DNA of 41,802 nt. It comes from Clostridia bacterium (GTDB taxonomy: Bacteria; Bacillota; Clostridia; UBA1381). The stretch covers positions 1 to 41,802 of the forward strand of contig JAOAAV010000045.1 in NCBI GenBank assembly GCA_026418715.1, given 5' to 3'. The translations under genes and the position numbers were made by a program. The notes under the pieces are model-generated. The model did not search any database and was not told where the DNA came from. It saw nothing but the letters and a program-made list of their open reading frames with translations. Positions 18,099 to 32,756 of this stretch are shown one piece after another (within the stretch, counting starts at the first letter, position 1; each line of letters begins with the position of its first letter).

Positions 18099-18185
18099 TT
18101 AGGAGTGTGCGCATAATTATGAGATGTATGAAATCAAATTGCTGCACATAAAAGAGCATCTTATATGAAGGGAGAAAACGCACGG

Positions 18186-18863
18186 ATGAATCAAAAAAAA
18201 TCAAGGATTCAAAGAAGAGAAAATGCGCAGACGCAGCGTACTCATAAATACGTTGATAAAAGCAATGTGACGGCAAATATCATAGCCGCGGTGATTATTG
18301 TTGCTTTTTTAGGTTTGGGTGCGTATGCGGTTGGAGATAAAATAGCAAAAGACAAGCAAAACCAGGCTGCCCAAACACAGACGGGAACTACTCAAACGGA
18401 CGCTGCTCAGACAGATACGGAAAATGCACAGACGCAGACGGTAAAAACAGCGGCTGAAGGCGAGGGGATATCTGTAGCGGAGTATCTTGGAAAATACGGC
18501 CTGCCGGCGGATTTGTCGGAGGACACCACAATTGCGGAAGCGTATTCTCTTATGACTGTTGAAAATATCGCTAAGGTGAATGGAAAGAGTGTTGAGGAAT
18601 TCAGAACCGAGAATTTTGTTCCGGACAGTGTTTCAAACGATACGCCTTGGGGGGAGGCGGTCGAGGAGCTTCCGTTTAAGGCGATTGTGGGCGAAGAAAA
18701 TGTGGCTAAGATGAAGGAAACGTACGGCTTGCCTGACAGCATTACGGCGGAAACAAAATGGGCGGATGTAAGCCCGATTTTGCAGGAGAAGCAAGCAGAG
18801 ATCCAGCAAGCACAGCAGAATGCGTCGGCTGGAGAGGCTGCGGAGCAGAAGTCGGGAGAATAA
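18186..18863 (+). CDS. Membrane-anchored triple-repeat protein A, function unknown
   Basis: 225 residues. A basic N-terminus (KKSRIQRRENAQTQR) precedes one membrane helix at about 27-49, then a Gln/Thr/Asp-rich linker (about 56-87), so the bulk should lie outside the membrane. The rest holds three degenerate units: ISVAEYLGKYGLPADLSED, MTVENIAKVNGKSVEEF continuing to VPDSVSNDTPWGEA, and NVAKMKETYGLPDSITAET ending in KWADV. Each pairs a short helical segment with an LP-D-x-[VI]-[ST]-x-[DE]-T turn. The gene at 19615-20370 encodes a clear paralog with the same three units in the same order. The ATG at 18186 follows AAGGGAG by 11 bases; an ATG at 18165 is a weaker alternative. Such LP-D repeats occur in other clostridial membrane proteins, with no known activity. 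Confidence 0.8.
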   Translation: MNQKKSRIQRRENAQTQRTHKYVDKSNVTANIIAAVIIVAFLGLGAYAVGDKIAKDKQNQAAQTQTGTTQTDAAQTDTENAQTQTVKTAAEGEGISVAEYLGKYGLPADLSEDTTIAEAYSLMTVENIAKVNGKSVEEFRTENFVPDSVSNDTPWGEAVEELPFKAIVGEENVAKMKETYGLPDSITAETKWADVSPILQEKQAEIQQAQQNASAGEAAEQKSGE

Positions 18864-18939
18864 GGGTTTTCTCAAAATTAAGAAGCGAGCATCTATAGTC
18901 AGTAATGGTTTTTGAGGGCACAAATTGGGAGACGGTTTT

Positions 18940-19599
18940 ATGGACAATAAAAACAAGGCGATGTATACGGTGGGCGAAGAAATATTTAATGCCGTATCTC
19001 ACGGAATAGGGGCGCTTTTGTCAGCGGCGGCGTTTGCGCTGCTTGTTGTTTGTGCGGCGCTTTACGGGGACGGATATAGCATAGCCTCGGCAATTGTTTT
19101 CGGTACGTCTTTGGTTGTGCTTTATTCCATGTCTGCGGTATATCATATTGCAACTAATGCGACTGCAAAGTATGTGCTTAGGGTTTTTGACCACTGCTCA
19201 ATATTTTTGCTGATAGCGGGAACGTATACACCGTATCTTTTGGTGACTATACGCTCAGTTTTAGGCTGGACGATGTTCGGACTGATATGGGCAGCGGCGC
19301 TGGTGGGTGTTGTGCTAAATTGCATCAGTATGGAAAGGTTTCGTCGGACATCACTTATTTGTTATGTGTGTATGGGCTGGGCGATTGTATTCGCGATGAA
19401 GCCTATTGCGTCTGCAATGGAAAGTACGGGACTTGTGCTTTTGATTGCGGGTGGCATAGTTTATACCATAGGCGTCATATTTTATGTCATGAAAAAGTAT
19501 AAGTATATGCATTCGGTATGGCACTTGTTTGTGCTTGCGGGGAGCATATGCCATTATTTTTCAATACTTCTTTATGTATTGCCGAATTTAAAAAAATAG
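18940..19599 (+). CDS. trhA: Hemolysin III / TrhA family membrane protein (PAQR)
   Basis: Seven-helix integral membrane protein of the hemolysin III/PAQR superfamily, 219 residues. Diagnostic blocks are NAVSHGIGALLS near the N-terminus, SMSAVYHIA, the FDHCSIFLLIAGTYTPYLL segment and the C-terminal HSVWHLFVLAGSICHYFS, which together supply the Ser, Asp and His residues of the presumed zinc site. Despite the name, bacterial members are linked to membrane energetics and lipid homeostasis rather than haemolysis. ATG 18940 was chosen because GGGAG lies 8 bases upstream; a TTG at 18925 in frame is less likely. It lies between two paralogous anchored repeat proteins, 76 bases after the first and 15 before the second. 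Confidence 0.92.
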   Translation: MDNKNKAMYTVGEEIFNAVSHGIGALLSAAAFALLVVCAALYGDGYSIASAIVFGTSLVVLYSMSAVYHIATNATAKYVLRVFDHCSIFLLIAGTYTPYLLVTIRSVLGWTMFGLIWAAALVGVVLNCISMERFRRTSLICYVCMGWAIVFAMKPIASAMESTGLVLLIAGGIVYTIGVIFYVMKKYKYMHSVWHLFVLAGSICHYFSILLYVLPNLKK

Positions 19600-19614: not shown

Positions 19615-20370
19615 ATGAGTGAAGACAATTTTCAGGAAAAAGAAGAGAATGAGAGCTTTGACAAGGTAGAAGAGAATGAAGTGTACGAGGCTGATTATGA
19701 AGCGTATGCGGATACTGAAGCTGAAGGAGCAGACGAGCAAGAGCCGGCTGTTTTGTATGCAGAGCAGAATGAGGAGGCTGCCGGAGATGCCGTAAAAAAT
19801 AATGCGCTTCCAAGGATTTTGGCGGCCGTGCTTGTTGTGTTGATTATTGCTGCAATAGTAATCACCGGTATTCTTTTCAGCGCCGGAGATATTTTCAAAA
19901 GAGGAAACAAATACAACAAAATGGGATATATTAACATAAGTGGCAGAACTCTGGCTGAGGTTGCACAAAGTTCGGGCAAAACCCTTGATGAATTTATTGC
20001 CGAGTACTCTTTGCCTACGGATATGCCGGGAGATACTACAGAGTCTGCCGCATATTACAGCATTCCTCTCAGCAAAATGGCAGAAATGAATGGAATGACC
20101 GTTGATGAGATTAAAGAGAGGCTGGAACTTCCTGACAGTGTTACGGGTGATACAACATGGGGTGAAGCAGAGGGCGAAGCCACATTGAGGGCCTATGTCG
20201 GCGAAGACTCCTTGGAAGAATTTAAGGAATACTATGGCTTTGGCGATGAGATTACGGCGGATACCAAATGGAAGGAAGTAAGAAATGTTGTTGATCAAAA
20301 GGCGCTGGAGGAGAGAATTGCGAGCGAGGCAGAGGCAAGTGAGAAGCCCGAGGGCGAAGCGGGGCAGTAA
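19615..20370 (+). CDS. Membrane-anchored triple-repeat protein B, function unknown
   Basis: 251 residues. An acidic N-terminal segment of about 60 residues (rich in Glu, Asp, Tyr) precedes a membrane helix at about 63-85 (ALPRILAAVLVVLIIAAIVI). The outer part repeats the plan of protein A: RTLAEVAQSSGKTLDEF with AEYSLPTDMPGDTT, then PLSKMAEMNGMTVDEI with LELPDSVTGDTTWGEA, then SLEEFKEYYGFGDEITADT ending in KWKEV. The two proteins align unit by unit and differ mostly at the N-terminus (basic in A, acidic in B). The RBS is AGAAGGAGAT, about 8 bases before the ATG. It is the third gene of the operon with trhA. No enzyme motif is seen; a protein-interaction or wall-binding role is a guess. Confidence 0.8.
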   Translation: MSEDNFQEKEENESFDKVEENEVYEADYEAYADTEAEGADEQEPAVLYAEQNEEAAGDAVKNNALPRILAAVLVVLIIAAIVITGILFSAGDIFKRGNKYNKMGYINISGRTLAEVAQSSGKTLDEFIAEYSLPTDMPGDTTESAAYYSIPLSKMAEMNGMTVDEIKERLELPDSVTGDTTWGEAEGEATLRAYVGEDSLEEFKEYYGFGDEITADTKWKEVRNVVDQKALEERIASEAEASEKPEGEAGQ

Positions 20371-27154: not shown

Positions 27155-27898
27155 ATGTTGGCGGAAGAAAGGTTTTCGAAAATTTTAAAGCTTTTGGAAG
27201 AGAAAAAAGCTGTGACGGTTTTGGAACTGACGAAAATTTTAAACATATCAGAATCAACCATAAGAAGGGACTTAAATGTTTTAAACAGCATGGGCAAGCT
27301 GAACAAGGTTCACGGCGGCGCCGTATCAATTTCCGCTCTCAGCATGGAGGAAAATGATGTTTCTTTAAGATACAATCTCAATGCAGATGAAAAAATGCGT
27401 ATAGCAAAATATGCCGCACAGCTTATAAAGGAAAATGATTTTGTTTATATGGATGCGGGGACAACGACGGAAGCAATGGTTGAATATATTACAGAAAAGA
27501 ATGCGGTATATGTGACTTGCGGAATATCATTGGCAAAAAAACTTGCGTATAAAGGATGCAAGGTATATATAATAGCGGGGAAAATAAAGGCGATGACGGA
27601 AGCCGTCATAGGAGGAGAGGCTGTTGAAAGCTTGGACAGATATCATTTTAATATCGGCTTTTTTGGTGCAAATGGTATAAGCACAGACGGTGGATTTAGT
27701 ACTCCTGATATTGAGGAAGCAAGAACAAAAACAAAGGCGATGTCAAGATGCAGAAGATGCTGCGTTGTTGCCGATTCTTCAAAATTCAACAAGATGTCGG
27801 CAGTTACTTTTGCCGATATAGAGAAAGCGGAAATAATAACTTCAAAACTGGAAGATGGCAAATTTAGAACCTATACCAGTGTTATGGAGGTTGGTTGA
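27155..27898 (+). CDS. fruR: DeoR-family repressor of the fructose operon
   Basis: 247 residues. An N-terminal DeoR helix-turn-helix (about 3-57: ERFSKILKLLEEKKAVTVLELTKIL, SESTIRRDLNVLN) is followed by the HGGAV linker and a sugar-phosphate sensor domain with DAGTTTEAMVEYI and GANGISTDGGFSTPDIEEARTK motifs. In this family fructose-1-phosphate usually relieves repression; that ligand is inferred from the neighbours. The ATG at 27155 follows AAAGGA by about 8 bases; an upstream TTG (27131) in frame is unlikely. It ends two bases before fruK, so it is autoregulated as first gene of the operon. Confidence 0.9.
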   Translation: MLAEERFSKILKLLEEKKAVTVLELTKILNISESTIRRDLNVLNSMGKLNKVHGGAVSISALSMEENDVSLRYNLNADEKMRIAKYAAQLIKENDFVYMDAGTTTEAMVEYITEKNAVYVTCGISLAKKLAYKGCKVYIIAGKIKAMTEAVIGGEAVESLDRYHFNIGFFGANGISTDGGFSTPDIEEARTKTKAMSRCRRCCVVADSSKFNKMSAVTFADIEKAEIITSKLEDGKFRTYTSVMEVG

Positions 27899-27899
27899 T

Positions 27900-28802
27900 A
27901 TGATTTATACGGTAACATTTAATCCGTGTATCGATTATGTAGTAAGGGTAGGAAGTCTTAAACAGGGAGAGATAAACCGTACGGAAAAAGAGTATGTTTA
28001 TCCCGGCGGAAAGGGAATTAATGTTTCGATTGTTCTCAAAAACTTGGGAATTGAAAGCAAGGTTTTAGGATTTGCCGCAGGATTTACAGGAGATGCGATT
28101 GAAAAGCTTATAAACGATTTTGGTTGTGAATGTGATTTTGTTAAAATTGATAAGGGGTTTTCAAGAATCAATGTAAAAATAAAGGCGGAGAAAGAAACGG
28201 AAATCAACGGACAGGGACCCATAATTTCAGAAGATGATTTAAATGAGCTTATTAAAAAATTGCAAGAGCTGAAGGCGGGGGATACGCTTGTTTTGGCGGG
28301 AAGTATCCCGAATACTCTTCCCGACGATGTTTATGAAATTATTTTAAAAAGCATCGAAAATAAAAATGTTAGAGTAGTTGCCGACGCAACAAAGGATTTG
28401 CTTCTTAATGTGCTTAAATATCGTCCGTTTTTAGTAAAACCTAACAATAAAGAACTGGGAGAAATGTTTGGAGTGGATTTAAAGACAGACGATGAAATCA
28501 TCAAATATGCTAAAAAATTAAAAGAGATGGGTGCAGAAAATGTTTTAATATCCATGGCGGGTGACGGAGCTTTAATGATAGACGAAAACGGAAATATTTT
28601 AAAAAGCCGTCCTCCCGAAGGCAAGGCGGTAAACTCTGTCGGCGCAGGAGATTCAATGGTTGCAGGCTTTTTAGCGGGCTATATGAAAACACAGGATTAT
28701 CAAACTGCCTTTAAAATGGGGCTTGCGGCAGGAAGTGCATCGGCATTTGTGGATTGGCTGGCAACAGAGGAACAAATATTGGAATTATTTAAAAAACTAT
28801 GA
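27900..28802 (+). CDS. fruK: 1-phosphofructokinase
   Basis: Phosphorylates fructose-1-phosphate, the product of the fructose PTS, to fructose-1,6-bisphosphate. The 300 residues are of the PfkB/ribokinase fold: substrate-side signature GGKGINVSIVLKNLG (about 38-52), and the catalytic GAGDSMVAGFLAGY with the base Asp near the C-terminus. The N-terminal MIYTVTFNPCIDYVV is typical of FruK. The ATG at 27900 was chosen because GGAGG lies 9 bases upstream and the family begins at this methionine; an open extension to 27855 overlaps fruR and is not conserved. A 24-base gap leads to fruA. Confidence 0.95.
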   Translation: MIYTVTFNPCIDYVVRVGSLKQGEINRTEKEYVYPGGKGINVSIVLKNLGIESKVLGFAAGFTGDAIEKLINDFGCECDFVKIDKGFSRINVKIKAEKETEINGQGPIISEDDLNELIKKLQELKAGDTLVLAGSIPNTLPDDVYEIILKSIENKNVRVVADATKDLLLNVLKYRPFLVKPNNKELGEMFGVDLKTDDEIIKYAKKLKEMGAENVLISMAGDGALMIDENGNILKSRPPEGKAVNSVGAGDSMVAGFLAGYMKTQDYQTAFKMGLAAGSASAFVDWLATEEQILELFKKL

Positions 28803-28826: not shown

Positions 28827-30692
28827 ATGCGTATTACGGATTTATTATCAAAAGAGTCTATAAGCTTAAATGCTCAGGCTTTTTCAAAAACAGAGGCAAT
28901 AGACAAGCTTATAGAACTGATGAAAAAGACGGGTAATTTAACAGATCCGGAGGAGTACAAAAATTGCGTTCTTGAAAGAGAAAAGCTTGGAACGACGGGA
29001 GTCGGCGAGGGCGTCGCTATTCCTCATGCAAAAACAAAGAGCGTTTTAAAAGCGGGATTGAGCGCTATGGTGGTTAAAGACGGTGTTGATTTTGAGGCCA
29101 TGGATGGAAAGCCTTCAAGATTGTTGTTTTTAATTGCCGCACCAGATACGGAGGAAAATATTCATCTTGATGTTTTGGGCAGATTATCCATTTTGCTTAT
29201 GAATGAATCATTTAGAGAAAATTTGATTAATGCTAAGAATACGGAGGAGTTTTGTGAAATGATAAACAAGGCTGAATCAGAAAAATTTGGTGACGTTCAG
29301 AAAACACAGGGTAAATATAAAATACTTGCGGTAACCGCCTGCCCGACGGGCATTGCTCACACATATATGGCGGCTGAAGCTTTGGAAGAAAAAGCAAAAC
29401 AGCTTGGTGTAAGTATAAAGGTAGAGACCAACGGCTCAGGCGGAGCAAAAAACGTACTCACAAAAGAGGACATTAAAAATGCGGATTGTATCATTGTTGC
29501 TGCCGATAAAAACATCGATATGGCAAGATTTGACGGGAAAAGAGTAATTCAGACAAATGTTGCAAAGGGTATTCATAAGGCAAAGGAGTTAATAGAAGAA
29601 GCAATGAGCGGGAAAGCTCCTATTTACAATCATACCGATTCGGGACTTGGCGACGAAACCGATGAAAAAGAGGGCGTGGGACGGCAGATTTATAAGCATC
29701 TCATGAATGGCGTGTCACATATGCTTCCATTTGTAATAGGCGGCGGAATTTTAATTGCTTTGGCATTTTTGTTTGACGACTTTAAGATAGATCCTTCCAA
29801 TTTTGGTAAAAACACGCCGCTGGCGGCACTTTTAAAAACCATAGGCGAGTATTCTTTCGGCTTTATGCTGCCTGTTTTGGCAGGTTTCATAGCTATGAGC
29901 ATAGGTGACAGACCTGCTTTGGCGGTGGGATTTGTCGGAGGATTGATGGCAAAAGAAGGAGGAGCAGGATTTTTAGGTGCTTTGGTTGCAGGTTTTGCGG
30001 CGGGATATATCATTGTAGGGCTGAGAAAGTTATTTGCAGGACTTCCTAAAAGCCTTGAAGGAACAAAGCCCGTGCTGATTTATCCGCTTCTTGGAGTTTT
30101 GCTTATAGGTGTCGGAATGACGTTTGTTATAAATCCTCCTATGGCTGCATTTAATAAGTGGATTTCGGATGCATTAAGCGGAATGAGCGGAACTAGCAAA
30201 ATATTGCTGGGCTTGATTTTGGGAGGTATGATGTCAATTGATTTTGGAGGCCCGATTAACAAAGCGGCATATCTTTTCGGCACAGCTTCGCTTGCAACAG
30301 GACAGTATGAAATAATGGCAGCGGTTATGGTGGGAGGTATGGTTCCGCCTCTTGCAATAGCACTTTGTACCGTGTTTTTCAAAAACAGATTTACAGAGAA
30401 GGAAAGACAATCCGGTATTACTAACTTTATTATGGGGCTGTCATTTATTACGGAAGGTGCAATCCCATTTGCAGCATCAGATCCTCTTAGAGTAATTCCA
30501 GCTTGTGCGATAGGCTCGGCGACTGCGGGAGCACTGTCGATGGTATTCGGGTGCAGCCTTATGGCTCCACATGGCGGTATATTTGTATTCCCTGTGGTTG
30601 GACAGCCCCTTTTGTACCTTCTTGCTCTGTGCATAGGCTCGGTTGTGGGTATGCTTATTCTTGCAGTTTTGAAAAAGCCTGTTGAAAAGTAA
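28827..30692 (+). CDS. fruA: Fructose-specific PTS enzyme IIABC
   Basis: Imports fructose while phosphorylating it at C1. The 621 residues form one A-B-C chain. EIIA (about 1-150) has the phosphorylated H67 in GVAIPHAKT; EIIB (about 163-262) has the phosphocysteine C172 in VTACPTGIAHTYMAAEAL; EIIC (about 280-621) carries some nine membrane helices with GGGILIALAFLFDD, MSIDFGGPINKAAY and EGAIPFAASDPLRVIP signatures of the fructose family. All phospho-sites are intact. The RBS AAAAAGGAGATGA is strong. A strong terminator follows, between this gene and ptsH. Confidence 0.96.
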   Translation: MRITDLLSKESISLNAQAFSKTEAIDKLIELMKKTGNLTDPEEYKNCVLEREKLGTTGVGEGVAIPHAKTKSVLKAGLSAMVVKDGVDFEAMDGKPSRLLFLIAAPDTEENIHLDVLGRLSILLMNESFRENLINAKNTEEFCEMINKAESEKFGDVQKTQGKYKILAVTACPTGIAHTYMAAEALEEKAKQLGVSIKVETNGSGGAKNVLTKEDIKNADCIIVAADKNIDMARFDGKRVIQTNVAKGIHKAKELIEEAMSGKAPIYNHTDSGLGDETDEKEGVGRQIYKHLMNGVSHMLPFVIGGGILIALAFLFDDFKIDPSNFGKNTPLAALLKTIGEYSFGFMLPVLAGFIAMSIGDRPALAVGFVGGLMAKEGGAGFLGALVAGFAAGYIIVGLRKLFAGLPKSLEGTKPVLIYPLLGVLLIGVGMTFVINPPMAAFNKWISDALSGMSGTSKILLGLILGGMMSIDFGGPINKAAYLFGTASLATGQYEIMAAVMVGGMVPPLAIALCTVFFKNRFTEKERQSGITNFIMGLSFITEGAIPFAASDPLRVIPACAIGSATAGALSMVFGCSLMAPHGGIFVFPVVGQPLLYLLALCIGSVVGMLILAVLKKPVEK

Positions 30693-30715: not shown

Positions 30716-30766
30716 AAAAAGAAGCCTGAAAAATGATTTTTTGCCAATAAATTCAGGCTTCTTTTT
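30716..30766 (+). terminator. Strong hairpin between fruA and ptsH
   Basis: AAAAAGAAGCCTGAA (30716-30730) pairs exactly with TTCAGGCTTCTTTTT (30752-30766), 15 bp, with a T-rich tail in the right arm. It should terminate a fraction or most of the fruRKA transcript before ptsH. Confidence 0.85.
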
Positions 30767-30796
30767 AAATCAAGTCTATGACGGAGGATGATTGAT

Positions 30797-31054
30797 ATGA
30801 AGGAATTTAAATATGTAATAACCGATAAAGATGGAATACATGCAAGACCTGCGGGGATGCTGGTAAAGGAATGTATGAAATTTTCGTCGGATATTACCAT
30901 CAAAAAGGGGACAAATTCGGGCGACGCAAAGAGGATATTTGCCGTAATGGGTCTTGCGGCGAAAAAAGGTGAGGAAATTACAATAACAGCCGAAGGCGCT
31001 GATGAAGAACAAGCAATAGAAACGATAAAGAATTTCCTTGTGGAAAATCTTTGA
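30797..31054 (+). CDS. ptsH: HPr-like phosphocarrier with Arg at position 46
   Basis: Small cytoplasmic phosphocarrier that passes phosphate from enzyme I to EIIA. The 85 residues carry the active-site His15 in GIHARPAGMLV. At the regulatory site, where Gram-positive HPr has Ser46 for HPr kinase (K-S-I-M-x-V-M-x-L), this one reads K45-R46-I47-F48-A49-V50-M51-G52-L53, so Ser46 is replaced by Arg. It can therefore take part in transport but not in HprK/CcpA signalling. ATG 30797 follows GGAGG by 9 bases; an ATG at 30788 in frame would put the RBS against the start. It lies 38 bases before ptsI. Confidence 0.92.
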   Translation: MKEFKYVITDKDGIHARPAGMLVKECMKFSSDITIKKGTNSGDAKRIFAVMGLAAKKGEEITITAEGADEEQAIETIKNFLVENL

Positions 31055-31091: not shown

Positions 31092-32756
31092 ATGACTGTT
31101 TTAAAAGGCAAGGGCGTTTCCGGAGGAATTGCTTTGGGAAGGCTTCTAATATATGAAAAAAGAGAAAAAAACATAAAGCGTTATCGTGTGGAAAATGCGG
31201 AAAATGAAATAAAAAGATTTGAGGATGCAAAAAAAGAAGCAATTTTTCAGCTTCAGCATTTGTATGACAAGGCTCTTCAGGAAGTTGGAGAAACACACGC
31301 AATGATATTTGACATACACCAAATGATGCTCAATGATTTGGACTATTGTGACTCCATAATCAATATTATCCGCTCCCAAAATGTAAATGCGGAGTATGCG
31401 GTAGCGGCGACGGCGGATAATTTTGCCATGATGTTTTCGGCTATGGATGATTCATATATGAAGGAAAGAGCCGCCGATGTCCGTGATATATCCGAAAGAG
31501 TTTTAAATATTTTATCGGATGCATCTGAAAACAGTATTTCGGGCAGTGAACCTGTCATTGTTGCGGCGGAGGATTTGACACCGAGCCAAACCGTTCAAAT
31601 GGACAAAGACAAAGTTTTAGGGTTTGTGACAATGAAAGGTTCTTCAAATTCACATACCGCCATACTCGCAAGAACCATGAACATTCCCGCTGTGGTCAAT
31701 GCAGGTGAATTTTTAAAGCCTGAATATGACGGGCAGTTTTGCATTATTGACGGATTTTCAGGAAATGTATATATAGATCCAGATGAAGCGACGATAAAAC
31801 ATTTTATCGAAAAGCAAAAGGAAGACAGATTTAAAAGAGAACTTTTATCCGAACTCAAGGGTAAGAAAAATATTACTTTGGACGGGCAAGAAATAAATAT
31901 ATATGCCAATATAGGAAACTTGTCCGACTTGGGAAGCGTTCTTCAAAATGATGCTGGGGGAGTCGGGCTATTTAGAAGTGAGTTTTTATATCTTGAAAAG
32001 TTAGATTTTCCCACGGAAGAGGAGCAATTTAACGTATATAAAACAGCGGCTGAGACCATGGCGGGGAAAAAGCTCATTATAAGGACTTTGGATATAGGAG
32101 CGGATAAACAGGCAAAATATTTCAATCTGCCAAATGAAGAAAATCCAGCAATGGGATACAGAGCCATACGCATATGCCTGCAGGAGAAGGAAATTTTTAA
32201 AACTCAGCTTAGGGCATTATACAGGGCATCGGCATACGGACAAATTGCAATTATGTTCCCTATGATTACTTCGCTAAAGGAAATAAAAGAAATTAAAAAA
32301 GTTGTCAAGGAAGTAAAATCCGAACTTTTGGCTGATGGGATACCATTTGATGAGTCTGTCGAGCTCGGCATCATGATTGAAACACCTGCCGCCGTGATAA
32401 TCAGCGATATTTTGGCGAAAGAGGTTGATTTTTTCAGTATAGGCACAAATGATTTAACTCAATATGCATTGGCGGTTGACCGTCAGAACCCGAAATTGGA
32501 TTGGTTTTATGATCCGCACCATAAGGCAATTATCAGAATGATTAAGATGGCGGCCGATAATGCACATCAAAACGGAATATGGATAGGAATATGCGGTGAA
32601 CTTGCTTCGGATTTGGAATTGACAGAAACTTTCTTGAGCATAGGCATAGATGAGCTTTCCGTATCGCCGGGGCTGATTTTAGAGCTTAGAAAAAAAGTGA
32701 GAGAGATTGATGTATCAAAAATAAGGGATGATATTATCAGAAATATTGAGCAATAA
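31092..32756 (+). CDS. ptsI: PTS enzyme I (PEP-protein phosphotransferase)
   Basis: Takes phosphate from phosphoenolpyruvate and hands it to HPr. The 554 residues are slightly shorter than the usual 570-575. The phosphorylated His is H188 in GSSNSHTAILARTMNIPAV, and the PEP-binding C-terminal barrel shows GGVGLFRSEFLYL, RTLDIGADKQ, GIMIETPAAVI, FFSIGTNDLTQYALAVDR and the catalytic Cys in GICGELASD. ATG 31092 fits the AGAAGGTGAT site; a GTG at 31083 is less likely. Being paired with a Ser46-less HPr behind fruRKA, it looks like a fructose-dedicated enzyme I or the only one in the genome; the window cannot tell. Confidence 0.95.
   Translation: MTVLKGKGVSGGIALGRLLIYEKREKNIKRYRVENAENEIKRFEDAKKEAIFQLQHLYDKALQEVGETHAMIFDIHQMMLNDLDYCDSIINIIRSQNVNAEYAVAATADNFAMMFSAMDDSYMKERAADVRDISERVLNILSDASENSISGSEPVIVAAEDLTPSQTVQMDKDKVLGFVTMKGSSNSHTAILARTMNIPAVVNAGEFLKPEYDGQFCIIDGFSGNVYIDPDEATIKHFIEKQKEDRFKRELLSELKGKKNITLDGQEINIYANIGNLSDLGSVLQNDAGGVGLFRSEFLYLEKLDFPTEEEQFNVYKTAAETMAGKKLIIRTLDIGADKQAKYFNLPNEENPAMGYRAIRICLQEKEIFKTQLRALYRASAYGQIAIMFPMITSLKEIKEIKKVVKEVKSELLADGIPFDESVELGIMIETPAAVIISDILAKEVDFFSIGTNDLTQYALAVDRQNPKLDWFYDPHHKAIIRMIKMAADNAHQNGIWIGICGELASDLELTETFLSIGIDELSVSPGLILELRKKVREIDVSKIRDDIIRNIEQ

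Follow-up and report, generated by a model that had tools for sequence, protein, structure and literature searches.

The fructose operon and its HPr

The window, that is, the whole 41,802 nt stretch that was analysed, carries a forward-strand operon with the gene order deoR-fruK-fruA-ptsH-ptsI. Its first gene is an ORF (27155..27898) for a putative DeoR/GlpR-type regulator, which matched DeoR/GlpR-family NCBIfam models, none of them above cut-off. This is followed by fruK, encoding 1-phosphofructokinase (27900..28802; TIGR03828, 342 bits versus a cut-off of 292), fruA, encoding a fructose PTS EIIABC (28827..30692; TIGR01427, TIGR00848 and TIGR00829 above cut-off), ptsH (30797..31054) and ptsI, encoding enzyme I (31092..32756; TIGR01417, 624 bits). 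Within PF00359 and PF02378, the two families to which the EII search was limited, fruA was the genome's only match. The TIGR01417 search found no second enzyme I in the genome besides the product of the window ptsI. Other matches to this model were far under the cut-off and were rejected as enzyme I, lying within a frame of ~890 aa that reads as pyruvate phosphate dikinase.

Between fruA and ptsH, a hairpin was found on the forward strand (30716..30766), consisting of a 15 bp stem (30716–30730 paired with 30752–30766) and a 21 nt loop. An A-run on its 5′ side and a T-run on its 3′ side make it terminator-like, and the RNA fold reached −18.6 kcal/mol (z = −4.1 against shuffles). It is absent from the list produced by a simple hairpin scan of the window, which takes loops of ≤8 nt. 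The hairpin suggests that the expression level of ptsHI may differ from that of fruKA. When 48 loci were scanned crudely for hairpins, no general pattern of a conserved fruA-ptsH terminator emerged in relatives, and no Rfam matches were found within the window. Elsewhere in the window, two similar proteins (18165–18863 and 19615–20370) each have an N-terminal hydrophobic stretch and repeated motifs, and between them lies a 224 aa gene (18925–19599) whose product looks like a membrane protein of the hemolysin-III type.

The ptsH start codon (ATG, 30797) is preceded by a GGAGG ribosome-binding site at 30783–30787, and the stop codon ends at 31054, giving a product of 85 aa. This start was preferred because the longer start chosen by the ORF caller (30788) abuts the ribosome-binding site with zero spacing. 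The product matched the HPr models TIGR01003 (92.1 bits versus a cut-off of 47.9) and PF00381 (103.5 bits). An earlier note, made from the letters alone, had described an HPr with an intact His15 and with K45-R46-I47 at the HprK site, and both readings held. His15 (CAT, 30839–30841) lies within the loop G13-I14-H15-A16-R17-P18, where both active-site residues, His15 and Arg17 (HARP), are present, and Arg46 (AGG, 30932–30934) lies within D43-A44-K45-R46-I47-F48-A49-V50-M51. In an ungapped alignment with solved Ser46 HPrs, their K-S-I coincided with K45-R46-I47 without any indel. No shifted serine was seen near site 46, the closest being Ser30, Ser31 and Ser41, and a misalignment was discounted as the alignment has no gaps.

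A sequencing or assembly error at codon 46 was also discounted, since Ser46 is likewise missing from all 80 relatives in other genomes, and so was a fusion or pseudogene, the window ptsH being an intact, free-standing ORF. The absence of Ser46 is thus a confirmed, real observation and not chance. The protein therefore does not carry the Ser46 phosphorylation site of the gram-positive, HprK-regulated HPrs. Being a free-standing 85 aa ORF, it is not a FPr/DTP multiphosphoryl carrier, in which HPr is fused to EIIA-Fru or EI, and it shows the reverse of the Crh pattern, where His15 is replaced and Ser46 is kept.

Other HPr-type genes, HprK and CcpA

The source assembly (1.86 Mb, 85% complete) was found to encode three HPr-type proteins: the window HPr (His15 and Arg46), a second with His15 and Ser46, and a third with Ser46 and no His. 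The second, on contig C91, is an orphan HPr placed between recA and uvrC. The third, on contig C14, is a Crh-like protein of 76 aa (L003 1456–1686) that is alignable from position 20 onward; it lacks the His15 loop and retains a DAKSIMG motif containing Ser46. Crh-like proteins of this type are widespread in the family and order.

HprK is also encoded, as two pieces at the ends of contigs C111 and C99, with the nucleotide-binding motif GESGVGKSE and the C-terminal motif IPVKLGRN. Downstream of it are php, murB, rapZ, yvcK, whiA and dnaE, named by eye from the sequence. The genome searches proposed in the earlier note thus located both a second HPr with Ser46 and hprK. The search for ccpA came back empty: in the 85%-complete genome there was no match to the LacI-family HTH (PF00356), and the best score to the CcpA model TIGR01481 was only 24.7 bits versus a cut-off of 442, from a protein that reads as a secreted sugar-binding protein. 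CcpA is either absent or encoded in the missing 15% of the genome.

Relatives of the window HPr

The best 80 loci of a public genome collection, mostly from Lachnospiraceae and Oscillospirales-type Clostridia, were compared with the window HPr. His15 was present in all 80 and Ser46 in none; residue 46 was Arg in 64, Lys in 8 and Ala in 8. In a wider set of HPrs lacking Ser46, this residue was R, K, A, G or T. A tree of 151 HPrs placed the recA-type Ser46 HPrs in one supported clade and 92 of the 93 HPrs lacking Ser46 in the other (98% SH-aLRT). The single exception outside this fru clade, L180, has Ala46 and sits on a long branch. Residue 46 required 13 changes on the tree, with no regain of Ser inside the 92-row fru clade; the finer forks are unreliable, since only 85 columns were available and column 46 was itself among them. 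The absence of Ser46 is therefore a trait of a large clade of gut Clostridia and not a singular change. The literature searched gave no description of clostridial HPrs lacking Ser46. One further locus, L230 from Hespellia stercorisuis, encodes an HPr-type protein that combines Ser46 with an Asp at position 15, another possible Crh-like form.

Co-occurrence was then counted across 61 genomes of the family and order. An HPr lacking Ser46 was present in 33 of the 38 genomes with enzyme I versus one of the 23 without it (Fisher p about 7e-11, a descriptive value as the genomes are related). The recA-type Ser46 HPr (54/61) and HprK (58/61) were mostly independent of enzyme I. In four of the five genomes that have enzyme I and no HPr lacking Ser46 (G006, G015, G020 and G045), a different, Ser46-bearing HPr adjoins ptsI. 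The fifth, G016, has enzyme I without a partner HPr and is uninformative, its ptsI starting ~160 bases from a contig end. The sole genome that has an HPr lacking Ser46 but no enzyme I, G028, is a draft in about 440 contigs.

In G047 and G053, two related genomes that lack enzyme I, the recA-type HPr has Arg instead of His15 and retains Ser46 (L150 and L152), the mirror of the change in the window HPr; in other genomes lacking enzyme I, this protein retains His15. A LacI-family protein was missing in about half of the genomes, some of them >90% complete. Five genomes (G037, G041, G048, G050 and G052) have HprK and a Ser46 HPr, with neither enzyme I nor a LacI-family protein found.

Twelve further genomes were reached through the loci, among them Roseburia inulinivorans DSM 16841, Hespellia stercorisuis, Caproiciproducens galactitolivorans, Dorea phocaeensis and Mediterraneibacter catenae. 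Among the HPr copies read, all 12 have a fru-type HPr lacking Ser46 together with another HPr that carries Ser46 and is of the type NAKSLLGVL, SAKSLLGVL or NAKSVLSVLG, and all 12 have HprK.

Residue 46 and position 84 of enzyme I

In the E. coli EI–HPr complex, the EI residue Glu84 pairs with Lys45 and Lys49 on the HPr side, where it also forms a hydrogen bond to Ser46 (PMC3724859). A negative charge introduced by S46D in E. coli HPr weakens the binding of MtlR, whose contact near Ser46 is acidic (PMC6763467). In the window EI, an Asp is aligned with E. coli Glu84. The same Asp stood beside Arg46 HPrs in 60 of the 60 cases listed, of 67, and beside Lys46 and Ala46 HPrs in 9/11 and 6/8, respectively; beside the Ser46 HPrs that adjoin EI, position 84 was non-acidic (Asp in 0/4). 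Arg46 could thus be the opposite of a phosphoserine, offering enzyme I a permanently favourable charge. This pairing is only a lead, because common descent explains it equally well, and a 46–84 salt bridge is not general, since Asp84 is also found beside most Ala46 HPrs.

Discussion

The window HPr is very probably a PTS-dedicated HPr that has escaped HprK control and leaves regulation to its paralogues. The residues, gene order, paralogues and clade-wide, operon-linked pattern can all be read from the sequences. Enzyme I, encoded alongside, would phosphorylate His15 of the fru-operon HPr, which would hand the phosphate to the EIIA of FruA. In support, the sole enzyme I and, within the families searched, the sole EIIA and EIIC are all located in the fru operon. 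With Arg at residue 46 (Lys or Ala in most of the other relatives), HprK would not phosphorylate this site, and high glycolytic intermediates would then be unable to switch the fru-operon HPr off. It should follow closely from the missing serine that HprK no longer controls the protein at site 46; S46A HPr cannot be phosphorylated there (PMC9631020). For this protein, the earlier proposal that a basic residue would neither accept phosphate from HprK nor mimic phosphoserine is thus supported. Arg46 may also aid docking on enzyme I, facing the acidic residue that aligns with E. coli Glu84. The recA-uvrC HPr, which has both His15 and Ser46, and the Crh-like protein, which has Ser46 and no His15 loop, would be the ones to carry HprK signalling. 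Since the genomes nearly always have a second HPr that keeps Ser46, transport and regulation appear to reside in different copies, and such a division of labour between the fru-operon HPr and its Ser46 paralogues is a good inference. As a counterpoint, the four relatives' HPrs that adjoin ptsI and carry Ser46 indicate that PTS linkage alone does not exclude this residue, and the recA-type HPr, having kept His15, could also carry phosphate for FruA.

Ser46 may instead have been lost under relaxed constraint, once HprK control of the fru-operon copy had ceased to matter, with Arg, Lys and Ala being neutral. This account is compatible with a PTS-only HPr and denies only a positive role for Arg46. 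It fits the variability of residue 46 and the many changes on the tree, as well as the retention of the operon with Ala46 HPrs, whereas Arg or Lys in 72 of the 80 relatives, the lack of any return to Ser in the fru clade and the nearly constant Asp at EI residue 84 with R/K46 argue against it; on balance we consider it possible but somewhat doubtful. Phosphorylation of the window HPr by HprK on another Ser or Thr, leaving it still regulated, is very improbable. The protein does have Ser30, Ser31, Ser41 and Thr39, and the C. difficile HPr is phosphorylated at Ser11, Ser30 and Thr31 in addition to its Ser46 homologue, by a kinase that was not shown (PMC8730811). However, the window HPr has no Ser or Thr at 44–48, and its remaining Ser positions are not all conserved in the 80 relatives. 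The known target of HprK is Ser46, at the start of helix B.

The earlier note had further proposed that such an HPr would be blind to carbon catabolite signalling through HprK and CcpA. This fits the protein itself, which has no Ser46, but does not extend to the cell. A cell wholly blind to HprK-type signalling would agree with the failure to find LacI/CcpA and with a PTS-linked HPr lacking Ser46, but HprK, a Ser46 HPr and a Ser46 Crh-like protein are all encoded and recur in relatives, making this highly unlikely. HprK signalling would not be lost but carried by these other proteins of the same genome, and the part of the proposal that concerned CcpA appears moot, as the search of the 85%-complete genome yielded no LacI-family protein.

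The window HPr resembles the canonical HPr of Firmicutes (PtsH of B. subtilis and E. faecalis) in family, length, His15 loop, Arg17 and position before ptsI. It differs in lacking Ser46, in belonging to a fructose operon and in sharing the genome with a separate Ser46 HPr. Crh of B. subtilis and the Crh-like protein of C. cellulolyticum (PMC3656788) are likewise HPr paralogues minus one of the two phosphorylation sites, and are its mirror image, with Ser46 kept and His15 lost where the window HPr has kept His15 and lost Ser46; their counterpart in the source genome is the third HPr-type gene. The fructose-operon HPr of Actinobacteria is found in the same gene order, deoR-fruK-fruA-ptsH, in another lineage (PMC2405797). 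The ptsH1 (S46A) laboratory mutants (PMC9631020) share a retained His15 and a non-phosphorylatable site 46, whereas the window type is natural, clade-wide, mostly basic rather than Ala at this position and backed by paralogues.

A wider and more speculative reading, which is possible but rather unlikely, is that this clade splits the two classical jobs of HPr. The fru-operon HPrs would act solely as PTS carriers, their site 46 being charge-reversed to suit the acidic EI residue, and the near-universal recA-uvrC HPr and the Crh-like protein would make up an HprK pathway that operates with neither enzyme I nor CcpA, via other partners.

In textbook models of gram-positive bacteria, a single HPr joins sugar transport with catabolite signalling. 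Should this split be real, fructose import in gut Clostridia, Roseburia, Dorea and Mediterraneibacter among them, would be free of the HprK brake, and work on catabolite control in these organisms should turn to the separate Ser46 HPr. The order-level relatives that lack enzyme I and have HprK and a Ser46 HPr would offer a natural test of a PTS-independent role for HprK.
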